In this document: piece after piece, positions 1,964 through 56,801 of the stretch
Layout: every line of letters begins with the position of its first letter
How positions within the stretch are numbered: position 1 is the stretch's first letter
Assembly (NCBI RefSeq): GCF_012044895.1
Contig: NZ_CP050695.1
Location: 1,952,501 to 2,016,500 of the forward strand
Direction: 5' to 3'
DNA from: Aquisalimonas sp. 2447
GTDB taxonomy: Bacteria; Pseudomonadota; Gammaproteobacteria; Nitrococcales; Aquisalimonadaceae
DNA: 64,000 nt
The notes under the pieces: generated by a model
Told to the model about the DNA's origin: nothing
The model's database searches: none
Seen by the model: only the letters and a program-made list of their open reading frames with translations
Translations under genes and position numbers: made by a program

Positions 1964-2407
1964 TCAGCTGAATGTGTCCTTTACCCGTCGCAACTGGGTG
2001 ATGGCCTCCTCCATTTCATCTTCCGACAGGCGTTCCAGCCGCCGGCGCAGGTGTTCGGCGTGGTCATTGAACGCCTCCTGGAACAGCGCGTCTCCCTCGG
2101 GGGTGAGCACGGCCAGCGTACTGCGGCGATCCGTTGTCGAGGGGCGGCGTTCCACCAGTCCGCGCTCCTGAAGGCGGTCGACCACGCTGGTGAGGGTCGT
2201 CTTGTAAATCAGGGTACGCTCACCGAGTTCACGGAAGGTCATCCCCTCCGTATTGCCCAGGGTCGCTATGACATCAAACTGCGCGGGGGTCAGGCCCCAT
2301 GACTTGATATGAGGCATCGTATACGCCTCAAAGGCCTGATAGGCCTGGACGAGCTCGCGCAACAGCCGCATGTACTTGGGTTTGGCAGCAGCGTCGGAGT
2401 GATTCAT
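1964..2407 (-). CDS. MarR family transcriptional regulator
   Basis: A 147-residue winged-helix regulator. The central segment (PAQFDVIATLG, then FRELGERTLIYKTTLTSVVDRL) is the MarR helix-turn-helix and recognition helix; RRPSTTDRRSTLAVLT is the wing with its DxR motif. The ATG at 2407 is set by GGAGG five bases upstream; in-frame codons farther upstream would place the promoter inside the gene. Its own promoter and that of wrbA carry the same dyad, so autoregulation and repression of wrbA are likely. The inducer is unknown; quinones or electrophiles are a natural guess given the target. No cysteine is present, so a thiol switch is unlikely. Confidence 0.88.
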   Translation of the reverse strand: MNHSDAAAKPKYMRLLRELVQAYQAFEAYTMPHIKSWGLTPAQFDVIATLGNTEGMTFRELGERTLIYKTTLTSVVDRLQERGLVERRPSTTDRRSTLAVLTPEGDALFQEAFNDHAEHLRRRLERLSEDEMEEAITQLRRVKDTFS

Positions 2408-2432
2408 TATGCCTCCAGAGAATGTGCCAACC

Positions 2433-2460
2433 ATGATAGTCCAATATCGGACAAATGCAA
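2433..2460 (-). promoter_or_regulatory. marR promoter with operator in the spacer
   Basis: On the minus strand TTGCAT (2460-2455) and TATCAT (2438-2433) form a sigma70-like promoter with a 16-bp spacer. The dyad GTCCAATATCGGAC (2439-2452, plus-strand reading) fills that spacer, so a bound repressor would block RNA polymerase. The sequence around it, ATAGTCCAATATCGGACAA, is nearly the same as at the wrbA site. Confidence 0.75.
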
Positions 2461-2521
2461 GCCTTTGCTTTCGACGCAGTGCTATCCTGAAGACCGCGGA
2501 CGTGGTGTGGAGGCGGTGAGT

Positions 2522-2902
2522 ATGTCGCTGCTGGACGAGATCGCGGAGCAGCGTGTCGCCGAGGCGCGGGACCGGGGCGAGCTGGACAATCTTCCCGGTT
2601 CCGGCAGGCGCCAGCAGCTGGACGACGATGCCATGGTGCCGGCGCATCTGCGGGCCGGCTACCGATTGCTGAAGAACGCAGGCTTCCTGCCCCCGGAAAT
2701 GCAGCTGCAGCGGGAGATCAACACCGTGGAAGAGCTGCTGGAGCAGTTGCCGGTGGAGGATCAGGCCGGCCGCAGCGATGCCCGTCGTCGCCTGGAGGTG
2801 CTGCGCATGCAGCTCGCCGAGAAGCGGGGCCGTGGCCTCAGCTTGCTGACCACGGATCCCGCCTACCAGCAGCGGTTGCTCGATCGTCTAGGGAAGCGCT
2901 AA
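2522..2902 (+). CDS. DUF1992 / DnaJC28-type conserved-domain protein
   Basis: A 126-residue protein that begins with LLDEIAEQRVAEARDRGELDNLPGSG and continues to VPAHLRAGYRLLKNAGFLPPEM, the signature of DUF1992, a domain also found in eukaryotic DNAJC28. The remainder is predicted helical or coiled-coil. Function is not established. The ATG at 2522 follows GGAGG by eight bases. It is divergent from marR, and its promoter must share the 114-bp gap holding the MarR operator, so it may also respond to MarR, though nothing shows that directly. Confidence 0.8.
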   Translation: MSLLDEIAEQRVAEARDRGELDNLPGSGRRQQLDDDAMVPAHLRAGYRLLKNAGFLPPEMQLQREINTVEELLEQLPVEDQAGRSDARRRLEVLRMQLAEKRGRGLSLLTTDPAYQQRLLDRLGKR

Positions 2903-2921
2903 ACCCCTGGACCGTCGGAAA

Positions 2922-5717
2922 TCAGATGTCCTTGGCGACCAGGCCGAAGAAGGTTCCGGCGAATAGTGCGAACCCGGCCCAGACCGCGATGTGTCCCAGG
3001 GCCATTGGGCCGTGAACGACCTCGTCGGTGCCGGAGAGCAGCAGCCAGAGGCCGCCGGTGACCAGCAGGGTATAGACCAGGCACAGGCTCAGAAAGACCA
3101 TGACTCGGCCCAGCTGCGCCAGCCAGAACGATAGTGCTGCCTCTTCCGGGCTGCGCCGTACCTTGCCCCGAAGATTGGCCATGAGGTAGGCGGCGGTCCC
3201 GCCGGCGCCGAGCAGGAAGGTGATGGCGATGCCGCGTGTGTCGCCCCCGGAAGCAATCTCGCGCCAGGCGTCACCGAAGTCCAGCATGAGAATGGCGCCC
3301 ACGAGCAGACCGATCCACACGGCGGCGAAATGGCCCAGGAAACCGGCCAGACCGGAGAGGGCATTCGCCGAGCCGCCGACACGTTGACCGGAGGCGACCC
3401 CGCGCAGTGGCTGCAGGCGGTCAAAGTGCCATTGGCGTAACTGGCGGCCGAGGTCCGGGTCGTTGATGCGTTCGCGCATTGGCGCGAACAGCGGATCCCG
3501 CATGAGCATGTGCACGTCAGCAGTGGCGCCGGAGGACATGGCACGCTCCAGCTGCCCTCGCCAGCGCAGTGCCAGGGCGTCGATGACCTCGGGCAGGGAG
3601 TGGTGATCCAGCCCCTCGGTGGCCCAGCGCAGCAGCAGAATGGGGCGCCGCGTGTCGGTATGCAGGCTGTTCCAGATCTCCAGCAGCAGCGGCGGACGCA
3701 GGGACACCGGAATCTCGGAGGGAACGGATGCCAGGGCCGCCGACCACTGTTCCGGCGTATCGTCAGTGTGCAGCGTGGCCTGGGCCACGGCGTCGAGCCC
3801 CTCCAGCCAGGCTCGTGAGTAGCGACGCAGGGCGTTGCAGGCGTTTTGGAGCAGAGTCGCCTCGCTCGCAGGCAGCAAGGGGGTCAGCAGCTGTTCCAGG
3901 GTCGCCAGTCGGTGATCCAGGCTTGCCGCCGCTTCACGGGAGCGGTGAGGTTCCCGCCAAGCGCCGGCCTCAAGCAGTTCCGAGAGAGTCAGCAGCTCTC
4001 CCTGGGCGTCGTCCATGGCGTTCTCCGGCAACCCGTCGGCGCCGGCCGGGGCGCCGAGGTAGCGCAACAACCCGACGACGGTGCCGGGCGGTGCACCGAT
4101 GGTGGTGCCGGCCCGCCCGATCAGGGACAGCAGGGTGCGGATGCCGTCGGCGGGCGCTCCAGGGTCGCTGGCAAGCTCCCGGAGCGCGGTGATGACAACC
4201 CGGCGGTGTCCGTCCGGCGAGTCCAGTCCGGGGCGGGCGGCATCCACTCTTTCCTCGGCTAGACCCTGGCACCATTCCCGTAACGGAATCAGCTCGCCGT
4301 TGCTGTCCTCGTACGGGCGGTCACTCGCGACGGTGGCCATGCGCCGGAACAGCTGTGGTGAAGGCTGACGGGCATGGATGCGGAGCAGAAAACGCCGTGC
4401 ATCCCAGCCCTGGGTGCCCATGAAGCTGCGGAAACGATGCTCAAGGACGTCGGCGAGTTCGCCGTCACCACCGCGGTGGCGCTGAACCAGCTGCTCCTGG
4501 AGGCCGAGGTCGTTGATACCGTGCAGTACCCGGGTATCTAGCAGCTTGTCCGCGGCGATGGCCTCCCAGTCGGCAACGCGAAGGACCCAAGGCACGCTGA
4601 GGCCGCTGTTGCCGATCCGTACCCCCGGAAGTGCCGCGAGCCGATTCGGCTCCAGAGGCGTGGCCCGGTCCAGGTCGGTGATCAGGAACAGGGCCAACGC
4701 CCGCTCCCGAGCCGGCAGGCGGTGCCAGTTGGCGGGACGGGCAAGCATGTCCGCCAGCGCGTCCAGCAGTGCCTGACCATGCGCCTCCACCGGCGAAGCG
4801 CCGATATAGCCCGGGCGTTCCTGGCTGGCACGCTCCAGTTCCGCCGCCCGGCGTGCCAGACCGCCGTATTCCCTGGGTTCCACGGTGAGCAGCGGGTTGC
4901 GGTTGGGAAAATGCCGCCGGCACCAGGTAGCGAAGCGCAGGCGACACCAGCGGCGGTCGGCTTCGGTTACCGTCTGCGGCCAGGCCGAGCTGAGTTCCTG
5001 GAGTGCGTCGGGATGGCGTCCCGCGACATGGAAAAGCTCATCCAGGCAGAGCAGCCGACGGGTGCCGTCAGCCACTGGCTTGTCGTCGCCAATGGACACC
5101 ACCAGGCAGTCCAGGGCGTCGCGCCAGGCGGCGGTGCAGGAGGGGACATGCATGGGGATGCCGTGGCCGCGGATGGCGAACAGCAGTTCGGTCCATCGCC
5201 GCCACACCATGCGCCCGGCGCGGTGGTCAGGTAGATCTTCCAGCAGGCCCAGGGCCGCCTCGGTAAGCCCCTCCAGGGCGCGGGTGGCCAACAGCTCGGC
5301 GACGACCTGTAGCAGCACGGCAGCGTCGGCGGCGTTACCGGGGCGACCGTCGCCGAGGGATGCGGAGGAGATTGGCGGTGGTCCACGCTGATCTGCCGGC
5401 GCATGGACCCAAGTGCTGGTGCGCGCCAGGAGGACGCGACGCGTGCTGCGCTGGCCATTCAGTTGCAGTGGGCGTTCCGGGTCGATGCTGCGCGAACAGG
5501 CGTAGTTATAGAGGGCGCGGTCCACCGTGTCGTCCTGGGCAGCGCGGCGTCCCAGACTGTATGCAGCGGGCTGATATACCCCGGGATCCGAGGCGCGGAA
5601 AAGGAACAGGAGCCGTTCGAGGTCCTTCTCATCCAGCGTTTCCCGGGCGTCAAGCTGTTCGAGCTCATCCAGCAGGGAGGGGCGGGCCGACTGAGTGGCG
5701 GCGTCTGTCGTTGCCAT
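2922..5717 (-). CDS. large membrane-anchored protein of unknown function
   Basis: A 931-residue protein I do not recognise. Residues 1 to about 780 look soluble and mostly helical, rich in Leu, Ala and Arg, with no catalytic motif I can name. The last ~145 residues hold four hydrophobic segments: FAAVWIGLLVGAILML, IAITFLLGAGGTAAYLM, VMVFLSLCLVYTLLVTGGLWLLL and IAVWAGFALFAGTFFGLVA. It therefore looks like a large cytoplasmic domain tethered at its C-terminus. It stands alone, convergent with the DUF1992 gene (19-bp gap) and downstream of the sirtuin gene in the same direction. A weak GGA lies before the ATG. The helical body could be a repeat scaffold; this is conjecture. Confidence 0.75.
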   Translation of the reverse strand: MATTDAATQSARPSLLDELEQLDARETLDEKDLERLLFLFRASDPGVYQPAAYSLGRRAAQDDTVDRALYNYACSRSIDPERPLQLNGQRSTRRVLLARTSTWVHAPADQRGPPPISSASLGDGRPGNAADAAVLLQVVAELLATRALEGLTEAALGLLEDLPDHRAGRMVWRRWTELLFAIRGHGIPMHVPSCTAAWRDALDCLVVSIGDDKPVADGTRRLLCLDELFHVAGRHPDALQELSSAWPQTVTEADRRWCRLRFATWCRRHFPNRNPLLTVEPREYGGLARRAAELERASQERPGYIGASPVEAHGQALLDALADMLARPANWHRLPARERALALFLITDLDRATPLEPNRLAALPGVRIGNSGLSVPWVLRVADWEAIAADKLLDTRVLHGINDLGLQEQLVQRHRGGDGELADVLEHRFRSFMGTQGWDARRFLLRIHARQPSPQLFRRMATVASDRPYEDSNGELIPLREWCQGLAEERVDAARPGLDSPDGHRRVVITALRELASDPGAPADGIRTLLSLIGRAGTTIGAPPGTVVGLLRYLGAPAGADGLPENAMDDAQGELLTLSELLEAGAWREPHRSREAAASLDHRLATLEQLLTPLLPASEATLLQNACNALRRYSRAWLEGLDAVAQATLHTDDTPEQWSAALASVPSEIPVSLRPPLLLEIWNSLHTDTRRPILLLRWATEGLDHHSLPEVIDALALRWRGQLERAMSSGATADVHMLMRDPLFAPMRERINDPDLGRQLRQWHFDRLQPLRGVASGQRVGGSANALSGLAGFLGHFAAVWIGLLVGAILMLDFGDAWREIASGGDTRGIAITFLLGAGGTAAYLMANLRGKVRRSPEEAALSFWLAQLGRVMVFLSLCLVYTLLVTGGLWLLLSGTDEVVHGPMALGHIAVWAGFALFAGTFFGLVAKDI

Positions 5718-7880: not shown

Positions 7881-8034
7881 GGCTTCGGCGGGAGCGGGGG
7901 CGGTCTCCGGGGCGACTAGCGGAGCCCCGGAGCGTAAGCCGGCCAGGCCGGAGTGGAGGGAACTTTTCTTCGTCAGGAGAAAAGTTAGGCGGAGCTCCGG
8001 AGCCCCGGAGACCGCCCCCGCTCCCGCCGAAGCC
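7881..8034. repeat. structured palindromic repeat element, copy 1
   Basis: Outer arms 7881-7913 and 8002-8034 are exact reverse complements over 33 bp, around an 88-bp core (7914-8001). The core starts GACTAGCG, includes GTAAGCCGGCCAGGCCGG and an inner 9-bp hairpin (AACTTTTCT / AGAAAAGTT), and ends GGCGGAGCTCCGGA. A second copy on the opposite strand at 28510-28732 shares 83 of 88 core positions. The element lies between the M20 peptidase stop and the SOS promoter of the radical SAM gene. A short ORF across it has no start signal and reads as repeat sequence, so I treat it as non-coding. Confidence 0.85.
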
Positions 8035-28413: not shown

Positions 28414-28848
28414 GGCGCGGGAGCATACCGGAAAAGTCGTTCGTTGTCGTGGGGGCTGGCTCAACATCATTTAGTGCGAGTGTGATGATGGCTGGCGCCA
28501 GGGTCGGGGGTCGAAGGTGAGCGTCGGGAGCACGGTTGGGGCTCCGGAGCTCCGCCTAACTTTTCTTCTGGCGAAGAAAAGTTCCCTTCACTCCGGCCTG
28601 GCCGGCTTACAGCGCATCCATGCGCTGGGCGCCGGTGGCCGCATCCCTGCGGCCACCCCTTCGGGGCCGGACAGCCTGCGTTCCGGGGCTGCGCTAGTCG
28701 CCCCAACCGTGCTCCCGACGCTCACCTTCGACGTGGCTGCATTATCGGTTGAAGGCTTCTTTTAGATGCAGCCCGCCCCCGGGATGGTTCAGGGTAGGGG
28801 CTTGGTGTATCGTTCGCCTTCATTCGGGACGAGCCTGTGGGGTGAGGA
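28414..28848. other. 435-bp divergent intergenic region
   Basis: Holds the repeat copy at 28510-28732. The remainder (28414-28509 and 28733-28848) should contain the divergent rhlB and dsrE-like promoters; I see no strong sigma70 hexamer pair. There is no further ORF with a ribosome binding site. Confidence 0.6.
28510..28732. repeat. structured palindromic repeat element, copy 2 with extra module
   Basis: This copy lies in reverse orientation to copy 1. Outer arms 28510-28542 and 28700-28732 are exact reverse complements over 33 bp, as in copy 1, but their sequence matches copy 1 arms at only about half the positions. The core matches copy 1 at 83 of 88 positions once a 69-bp module (28611-28679) is set aside. 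The module contains its own hairpins, TGGCCGCA/TGCGGCCA and AGCGCAT/ATGCGCT. It fills the rhlB/dsrE-like divergent gap. A 79-codon ORF across it is the repeat itself read through. Confidence 0.85.
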
Positions 28849-56310: not shown

Positions 56311-56384
56311 TCAGCACGGGCGGGTCGCCGCAGCGACATGAAAAACACGAAGCGAGAGCGCATTCGATGAGGTAGGTCATCAAA

Positions 56385-56489
56385 GCTTCCCTACGCCGGT
56401 GCGAGCCGGGTCAGGTTCAAAGGGTATTTCTCAGCGCCCGGCTTATGTCGTGTAGCCGTTACACAGGACACTCGCCGGGGCACCCCCGC
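56385..56489 (-). ncRNA. TPP riboswitch in the thiC leader
   Basis: On the minus strand the aptamer has GGGGTGCC, a long P3, GCTGAGA, ATACCC, TTTGAACCTGA and the closing CACCGGCGTAGGGAA. These are the conserved THI-element segments that bind thiamine diphosphate. It lies about 90 bp before the thiC ATG. Mode of action (translation or transcription) is not clear from the sequence. Confidence 0.95.
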
Positions 56490-56801
56490 TTCGGACTGCT
56501 GGCGGCACGGCATTGGTGCCACCCTGGCAAGCCTACGTCACACACGCCCCTGCCGCCTACCCCTGGCGGATACGGCGGCGAATTGATGCGCTGCGTCTAG
56601 GGTTTGGCGGTTCTATGGGCTAGGGTCACTAGATCTCCGGGGCAGGCCGCACCGTGCGCCGGTCTGTGCGGGGTGGAACACGGACAGCGAACGTGCAGGG
56701 AGCCGGAAATATACGACACGATCTTGGGTCGTGACTCACGGGCGGGTGGGCGACACCGCTCGCCTTATCAGTGACCGTTATCGTTCCACGGGGGGAGAAG
56801 A
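56490..56801. other. 312-bp intergenic region between thiC leader and lactate permease
   Basis: It must hold the divergent promoters. A small dyad CACGA-tcttggg-TCGTG lies at about 56717-56733, upstream of the permease gene, and could be an operator for a lactate regulator; the evidence is weak. I see no ORF with a ribosome binding site and no clear hexamer pair. Confidence 0.45.

Follow-up and report, generated by a model that had tools for sequence, protein, structure and literature searches.

Intergenic hairpin repeats of Aquisalimonas combine a conserved core with private, self-matched arms

The window, a 64,000-nucleotide stretch of the complete genome of Aquisalimonas sp. 2447 (3.97 Mb on one contig; G000), contains two copies of a palindromic repeat, which raise the question of how the arms of a hairpin can stay perfectly paired when their sequence differs from copy to copy. 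In copy 1, situated on the plus strand between two minus-strand genes, a left arm of 33 nt (7881–7913) and a right arm of 33 nt (8002–8034) are complementary at 33/33 positions and enclose a shortened core of 88 nt (7914–8001). Copy 2 lies on the minus strand in a divergent gap. In element orientation, its left arm (28700–28732) and right arm (28510–28542), again 33 nt each and complementary at 33/33 positions, flank a full core of 157 nt (28543–28699), as defined by an alignment of 35 cores and their consensus fold. The cores can be aligned with 83 of 88 bases in common, and 15 of the 33 left-arm bases are alike. Perfect 33-bp arms in both copies, 83/88 shared core bases, about half of the arm bases alike and the two genomic settings had all been described in the original prediction and were found again on recount. 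The fixed 33-88-33 architecture proposed there did not hold, since copy 2 is organised as 33-157-33, copy 1 represents a deletion form lacking 69 nt between positions 7933 and 7934, and arms across the family range from 26 to 62 nt. Nor is the repeat restricted to two copies, as a covariance model counts 17 in this genome.

The internal deletion of copy 1 removes two of the three core hairpins, namely both with ANGGAY loops. In copy 2, these CsrA-like hairpins are predicted at 28610–28627 (loop AUGGAU) and 28634–28657 (loop AGGGAU), both on the minus strand; the loop motif is present in 35/35 aligned cores. The third hairpin is placed at 7961–7986 on the plus strand of copy 1 (AACTTTTCTTC...GAGAAAAGTT) by RNA folding and sequence, and at 28558–28583 on the minus strand of copy 2 by core alignment and fold. 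Across copies it behaves as a variable module, which occurs in several types or is absent. Predicted folding energies are -158 kcal/mol for copy 2 (z -12) and -123 kcal/mol for copy 1 (z -11). When spacers of up to 260 nt are allowed, the longest perfect inverted repeat of the real sequence measures 33 bp, whereas none of 20 windows generated by a first-order Markov model contains one longer than 13 bp. Elsewhere in the genome the left arm of copy 1 has only a partial match, comprising the arm and core start of locus L028 (query positions 7–69, 73% identity).

The covariance model of this repeat, family A, was built on 35 cores and run on 54 genomes of the order (the present one among them), of which ten contained matches. 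Besides the copies in this genome, 33 were detected in A. lutea (G001) and smaller numbers in three further Aquisalimonas genomes, with 8 in G002, 3 in G003 and 4 in G004. More distant copies were recognised in G029 (12), G020 (5), G034 (3), G037 (2) and G044 (1); judged from these sequence matches, distant relatives of family A occur in other families of the order. By local alignment of the flanks, arms with a score of at least 40 are present in 49/53 Aquisalimonas copies examined, and seven further A. lutea copies are armed as well. The family is thus neither limited to two copies nor composed of unpaired arms, the two outcomes that the original prediction had named as speaking against it. 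In G029, 8 of 12 copies have an arm score of at least 69; the remaining four scored below 40 under automatic anchoring, and re-anchoring by pattern gives paired arms in at least one of them (L274, 11545). Both G037 copies are armed, and flank alignment revealed no arms in four G020 and two G034 copies. The orientation of family A relative to genes, assigned with heuristic open reading frames, is not clearly biased (16 same, 12 opposite, 13 convergent, 3 divergent, 5 undecided), and with 11 of the 17 copies of this genome fitting a replichore-matching rule there is no clear strand bias either. Some copies form close inverted pairs with starts less than about 360 nt apart, four in G001 (C12:64034/64286, C12:175599/175838, C11:446033/446357 and C1:1928594/1928946) and one in G000 (C1:59373/59649). 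A viral collection contained no exact match to the core pattern. An Oligoflexia contig (L176) fits a short pattern and does not fit the covariance model, and was taken as a chance match.

Pairing of the arms was compared in 45 copies. Arms of the same copy pair at 95% of positions, compared with 38.6% for arms of different copies and 29–37% for arms slid by 1–3 bases, and all four pair types were seen at 28/33 arm positions, in agreement with the predicted covariation. Arm lengths of 49 copies as aligned cluster at 33 nt (13 copies) and 37–39 nt (13 copies). Tens of copies with co-varying arms of 30–36 bp had been expected, and copy number and covariation, though not the length range, came out accordingly. 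Among 33-nt arms only the outermost GTC/GAC and the inner GGGC/GCCC recur, and positional similarity is weak, with 38% (a value that takes in related copies) against 33% for shuffled arms.

Such covariation would be explained if each copy were purely a selected RNA, such as one that binds CsrA or a stem that protects an mRNA, in which the arms co-vary only through one-by-one compensation of mismatches that are selected against. The very stable fold (z about -12) is consistent with this explanation, as are two-sided changes in 23 of the 45 predicted core pairs, the conservation of both CsrA-like loops and the persistence of arms and core over the flanking sequence described below. However, one mismatch among 33 bp of stem would be expected to have little effect, yet 22/49 arm pairs are perfect. 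Moreover, matched arms persist in the copies without the two ANGGAY loops, copy 1 and L032+, which pair at 33/33 and 28/29 positions, respectively, as copying of one arm from the other predicts. The residual mismatches are also not mainly G-U pairs of one strand, since wobble on the GGA strand accounts for 14 of them and wobble on the opposite strand for 8, while 23 fit neither.

Further evidence against compensation alone comes from young groups of copies sharing an arm sequence. Within an A. lutea arm family of six copies, 12 mirrored cells (10 distinct), G-to-C in both arms included, stand against a single one-sided change. Eight copies from G038 of a second repeat, family B, differ by 9 distinct mirrored changes and 4 distinct one-sided ones; among these one-sided changes is a mismatch inherited by five copies. 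A count on seven of these copies gave 7 mirrored and 3 one-sided changes. Pooled, both arm families give 19 distinct mirrored and 5 one-sided changes. The mirrored changes include transversions and multi-base blocks, and in L089 adjacent bases are altered jointly in both arms. Orthologues in G000 and G002 allowed comparison in two clean pairs: L025/L105 differ by one mirrored and one one-sided arm change, and L029/L106 by one of each plus an indel. The pair L030/L107 has no arm changes of either kind. The original prediction had named either a selected folded stem or a copying mechanism that matches the arms; both find support here, with the mirrored changes favouring copying as a large cause. 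Selection of the RNA as the sole cause is accordingly considered rather unlikely.

The base composition of the arms is likewise uneven. Left (5') arms are rich in G and T, with a G/C ratio of 2.25 and a T/A ratio of 2.38; G exceeds C in 48/49 copies and T exceeds A in 42 of 46 decided copies. The left flanks of family-A copies have a balanced composition, and the reading of arms as captured random flank DNA was rejected because the left arms are skewed and the left flanks are not; the right flanks are skewed too. Over their first 30 nt, read towards the element, the right flanks display G/C and T/A ratios of 1.56 and 1.40, with G exceeding C in 45 of 47 decided cases. On the element strand they are thus C-rich and G-poor, like the right arm. 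A short tail, CCGNAAGNC, is found in 12/49 copies, and the flank skew persists in 34 of 36 decided copies without it. As the right flank has a similar, weaker skew, the skew of the arms is not specific to the stem. In family B the arm skew is weak (G/C 1.30, T/A 1.25), and T/A is reversed in G038 (0.67).

Comparison of arms with cores revealed that their similarities are uncorrelated. The correlation coefficient between arm and core identity is 0.006 for 496 A. lutea pairs and -0.01 for 105 pairs in this genome, the latter computed without gapped arm identities, which are inflated by free end gaps. A. lutea is represented by a draft assembly, in which similar cores could be swapped, yet the complete genome agrees. 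In A. lutea, cores of copies sharing an arm family are as different from each other as other cores (0.931 versus 0.933), and at least six cores identical over their first 115 nt carry arms that are 24–52% alike. Due to this lack of correlation it can be concluded that arms and core evolve as separate modules. Between the orthologues L025 and L105 the core is 95% identical, the arms 97% and 94%, and the adjacent 40 nt, gap columns excluded, 63% and 77%; for L029 and L106 the corresponding values are 97% and 95% for the arms, 74% for the left flank and 90% for the right flank. In both pairs arms and core change at similar low rates; that they outlast the flanks is clear in L025/L105 and less marked in L029/L106. 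Decoupling in combination with this slow change means that drift from a time when the cores were shared does not account for the arm differences. Cores rather seem to have spread or been homogenised between loci apart from their arms, for which we infer gene conversion as the route.

For eight of the 17 loci in this genome the corresponding gap of A. lutea was inspected, and in four of them (L027, L028, L039 and, with one flank matched, L029) it also holds a copy. For L037, a copy is located in the same gap in G003. The arms of same-gap copies agree at 6–14 of 29 positions, each copy being self-paired; the low ungapped count for L029 is caused by a one-base indel. Relative to the genes, the core of L093 is reversed compared with L027. 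With about 33 copies distributed over an estimated 2,000–3,000 gaps, four shared gaps out of eight would exceed chance, and insertion hot spots may be an alternative source of same-gap copies. Element-free sites were identified in G004 (for L027, L028, L037, L039 and L001), in G003 (L028 and L039) and in G002 (L033).

These sites bear on two explanations that start from insertion. A mobile core could hop into the loops of pre-existing long palindromes, which then become its arms; core and arm similarity would be uncorrelated, as observed, and at the L027 site G002 indeed contains a hairpin that lacks the core and whose arms measure about 25 bp. This hairpin could equally be a deletion remnant, however, and at the L033 site of G002 the core is gone together with both arms, except for about 12 nt at one end. 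Candidate empty palindromes are moreover few: a survey of 304 kb yielded 15 inverted repeats with a score of at least 20, of which three belong to family A, one to family B and several are REP-like. The common base bias of the arms and their weak positional similarity are also unlike unrelated palindromes, which renders core-hopping distinctly improbable. Alternatively, insertion might copy the flank of the target to the opposite side of the element and so give rise to locus-specific arms by inverted target duplication. While the arms are largely locus-specific and both right flank and right arm are C-rich, the closest empty site, L033 in G002, has neither arm save for the same 12 nt or so, one arm family is common to six copies at different loci, and left flanks lack the bias of the arms. 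Of the explanations weighed here inverted target duplication is regarded as the least probable.

Movement by a transposase, as in an ordinary MITE or REPIN, would suit a short, interspersed, non-coding and palindromic family. RAYT-type transposases (PF01797) are encoded in 8/10 genomes searched, and in a set of 40 genomes, this one counted, family A occurs in 7 and family B in 18. However, arm sequences differ between copies, so that this explanation already fails on conserved ends: with the 38.6% agreement of arm bases between copies, the comparison of 45 copies revealed neither the conserved termini of REPINs or REPs nor family-wide terminal inverted repeats of a MITE. Transposase profile searches were carried out with PF01797 and PF12784. 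In 19 loci around PF01797 matches, a subset of all matches, no family-A model match was found below an E-value of 0.03, and of family B a single clear copy, at a distance of about 1.5 kb, and a partial match were detected; a RAYT as mover was thus not found beside the repeats. A PF01797 match at 3606007 (G000 C1 3605623–3606431) lies between two palindromes of another, REP-like family with shared arms, and a REPIN-like system coexists with the repeats in this genome. In G029, PDDEXK_2 (Rpn-like) genes are located beside family-A copies, and at L274 and L275 (G029 C1 1914000–1945000) a distant family-A cluster is interleaved with repeated PDDEXK_2 and other transposase genes. As a mover of the family these genes were rejected, since they were matched in none of the five Aquisalimonas genomes and in only 2/12 genomes searched, in one of the two over the cut-off. 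Finally, the L033/L111 empty site, where the element ends are not sharply defined, displayed no recognisable target duplication. An ordinary MITE or REPIN is therefore judged very improbable. The original prediction did not recognise the repeat as a known REP family, and neither conserved REPIN ends nor an adjoining RAYT gene were found. Families A and B were not described among the literature matches listed, a scope outside which most subscription journals fall.

The conserved part of family A is its core. For the full core of about 157 nt the consensus fold predicts 45 pairs, 23 of which have at least one two-sided change in the 35-core alignment. All 35 aligned cores contain two CA(N)GGAYG loops, N being missing in 1/70 loops. 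According to PMC7652899, CsrA recognises the consensus RUACARGGAUGU, for the most part within hairpin loops of six bases, and loops of the form ANGGAN are bound by RsmE. The same account states that very stable stems may disfavour CsrA binding and that hairpins selected by SELEX mostly have no more than four contiguous pairs. In this genome, two PF02599 matches over the cut-off indicate CsrA genes. Since the ANGGAY loops fit the consensus, a role of family A as a CsrA-binding RNA is plausible from sequence, and constitutes the least certain step of the mechanism proposed below. Searches with Rfam 15 at gathering thresholds reported only a TPP riboswitch in the window (56370–56497, minus strand, barely over threshold) and only a tRNA in 17 further loci, and permissive searches of three loci gave nothing credible at the repeats. 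The best permissive matches in L076, a microRNA precursor and a Yersinia sRNA, fall on a family-B hairpin far below gathering scores. Likewise, Pseudomon-groES touches two family-A cores with E-values of 1.9 and 2.6, far below its gathering score.

Family B resembles family A in that most copies examined have locus-specific paired arms. Its core spans 52–54 nt with two loops of the same type, and the arms mostly measure 29 nt (17/40 copies). Among 42 core stretches, 37 have two A(N)GGAN motifs, four have three and one has a single motif. In several places the two families are neighbours, separated by about 100 or 166 nt, the GGA loops of A and B being on opposite strands; such pairs in G000 C1 are found at 765252/765481, 1053099/1053330, 1162110/1162276 and 3241252/3240922. 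This arrangement suggests that A and B may form a composite unit. A wide distribution of family B in Gammaproteobacteria is not supported, as its exact pattern is present in only 2/56 genomes of the class, this one included. Three plasmid records match it with 80–90% identity. Counted by exact pattern over G000 C1 31346–3650233 (L312–L330 and three further places), the GGA strand of family B is minus in 12/13 copies below 2.1 Mb and plus in 6/9 copies above 2.9 Mb. Measured in samples of 12 kb, the GC skew is positive in most samples as far as 1.95 Mb and negative in most of those from 2.1 Mb onwards, the samples at 0.4 and 3.4 Mb being exceptions; by this pattern, the origin lies close to 0 and the terminus at about 2.05 Mb.

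Taken together, the evidence leans towards a family of conserved-core hairpins with private, self-matched stems, produced by conversion, fold-back copying and probable selection on transcripts, a reading held with slightly better than even confidence. Family A would consist of non-coding, non-autonomous intergenic hairpin repeats with two separately evolving modules, most copies probably being old and mostly stationary residents of their gaps. Cores would be homogenised between loci by gene conversion, which may stop at the arms because these are too different. Within a copy, replication may preserve the match of the two arms through fold-back template switching (quasipalindrome correction), whereby a change arising in either arm would be transferred to its partner; selection of transcripts traversing the gap for a folded stem probably contributes to this matching as well. 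Copies with a common arm indicate that arms were carried along in some duplications. The stem would display two CsrA/RsmA-type loops, through which transcripts could conceivably bind or titrate CsrA. Copying and selection are both taken to act, and copying is taken as the main cause of arm identity; mirrored changes, intact arms in loop-less copies and the skew on the 5' side agree with it. Selection on transcripts fits because core stems co-vary and arms are retained over flanks. More tentatively, one may envisage a CsrA-loop core that is passed between loci by conversion while private stems are perpetually re-made, in families A and B and in several families of the order. Paired changes in a stem usually count as proof that RNA structure is under selection. 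In these repeats, the mirrored changes, the loop-less copies and the decoupling of stem and core suggest that much of the covariation arises from copying, and template-switch evolution in bacteria could therefore be studied on them as a natural test set. Should the loops bind CsrA, the dispersed copies would in addition form a reservoir of CsrA sites absent from Rfam.

Among known systems, the TwoAYGGAY RNA motif, as its name indicates, has two hairpins with AYGGAY-like loops and in this respect is like family A. The motif is tabulated in PMC2864571; Rfam searches of family-A loci reported no such match. Targets of CsrA/RsmA and RNAs of the CsrB/RsmZ type, as characterised in PMC7652899, share with family A two ANGGAY-loop hairpins closed by CA...G and the presence of CsrA genes. 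In contrast to them, family A is dispersed in many copies, has a long variable closing stem and gave no Rfam match, and its hairpins have more contiguous pairs than the SELEX hairpins for CsrA. In sponge mitochondria, repetitive hairpin elements are also dispersed, but PMC2800124 describes conserved stems and variable loops, the reverse of family A. REPINs are portrayed in PMC3116915 as REP doublets with conserved ends, a variable middle and compensatory changes in the inner hairpin. Family A resembles them as short, non-coding intergenic palindromes that fold into hairpins, and reverses their organisation, since its middle is conserved, its arms vary and no RAYT adjoins. A parallel in mode of change is the template switching which, in PMC8794818, is argued to create and mend RNA stems, evidence for its part in maintaining short stems being called circumstantial. 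The cases treated there are histories of rRNA and microRNA, whereas family A is a dispersed bacterial repeat with arms of about 33–39 bp, and, unlike in those stems, its skew extends into one flank. Intrastrand template switching is predicted by the same source to leave a G-C and U-A excess on the 5' side of a stem, and family A displays both this excess and mirrored multi-base changes.
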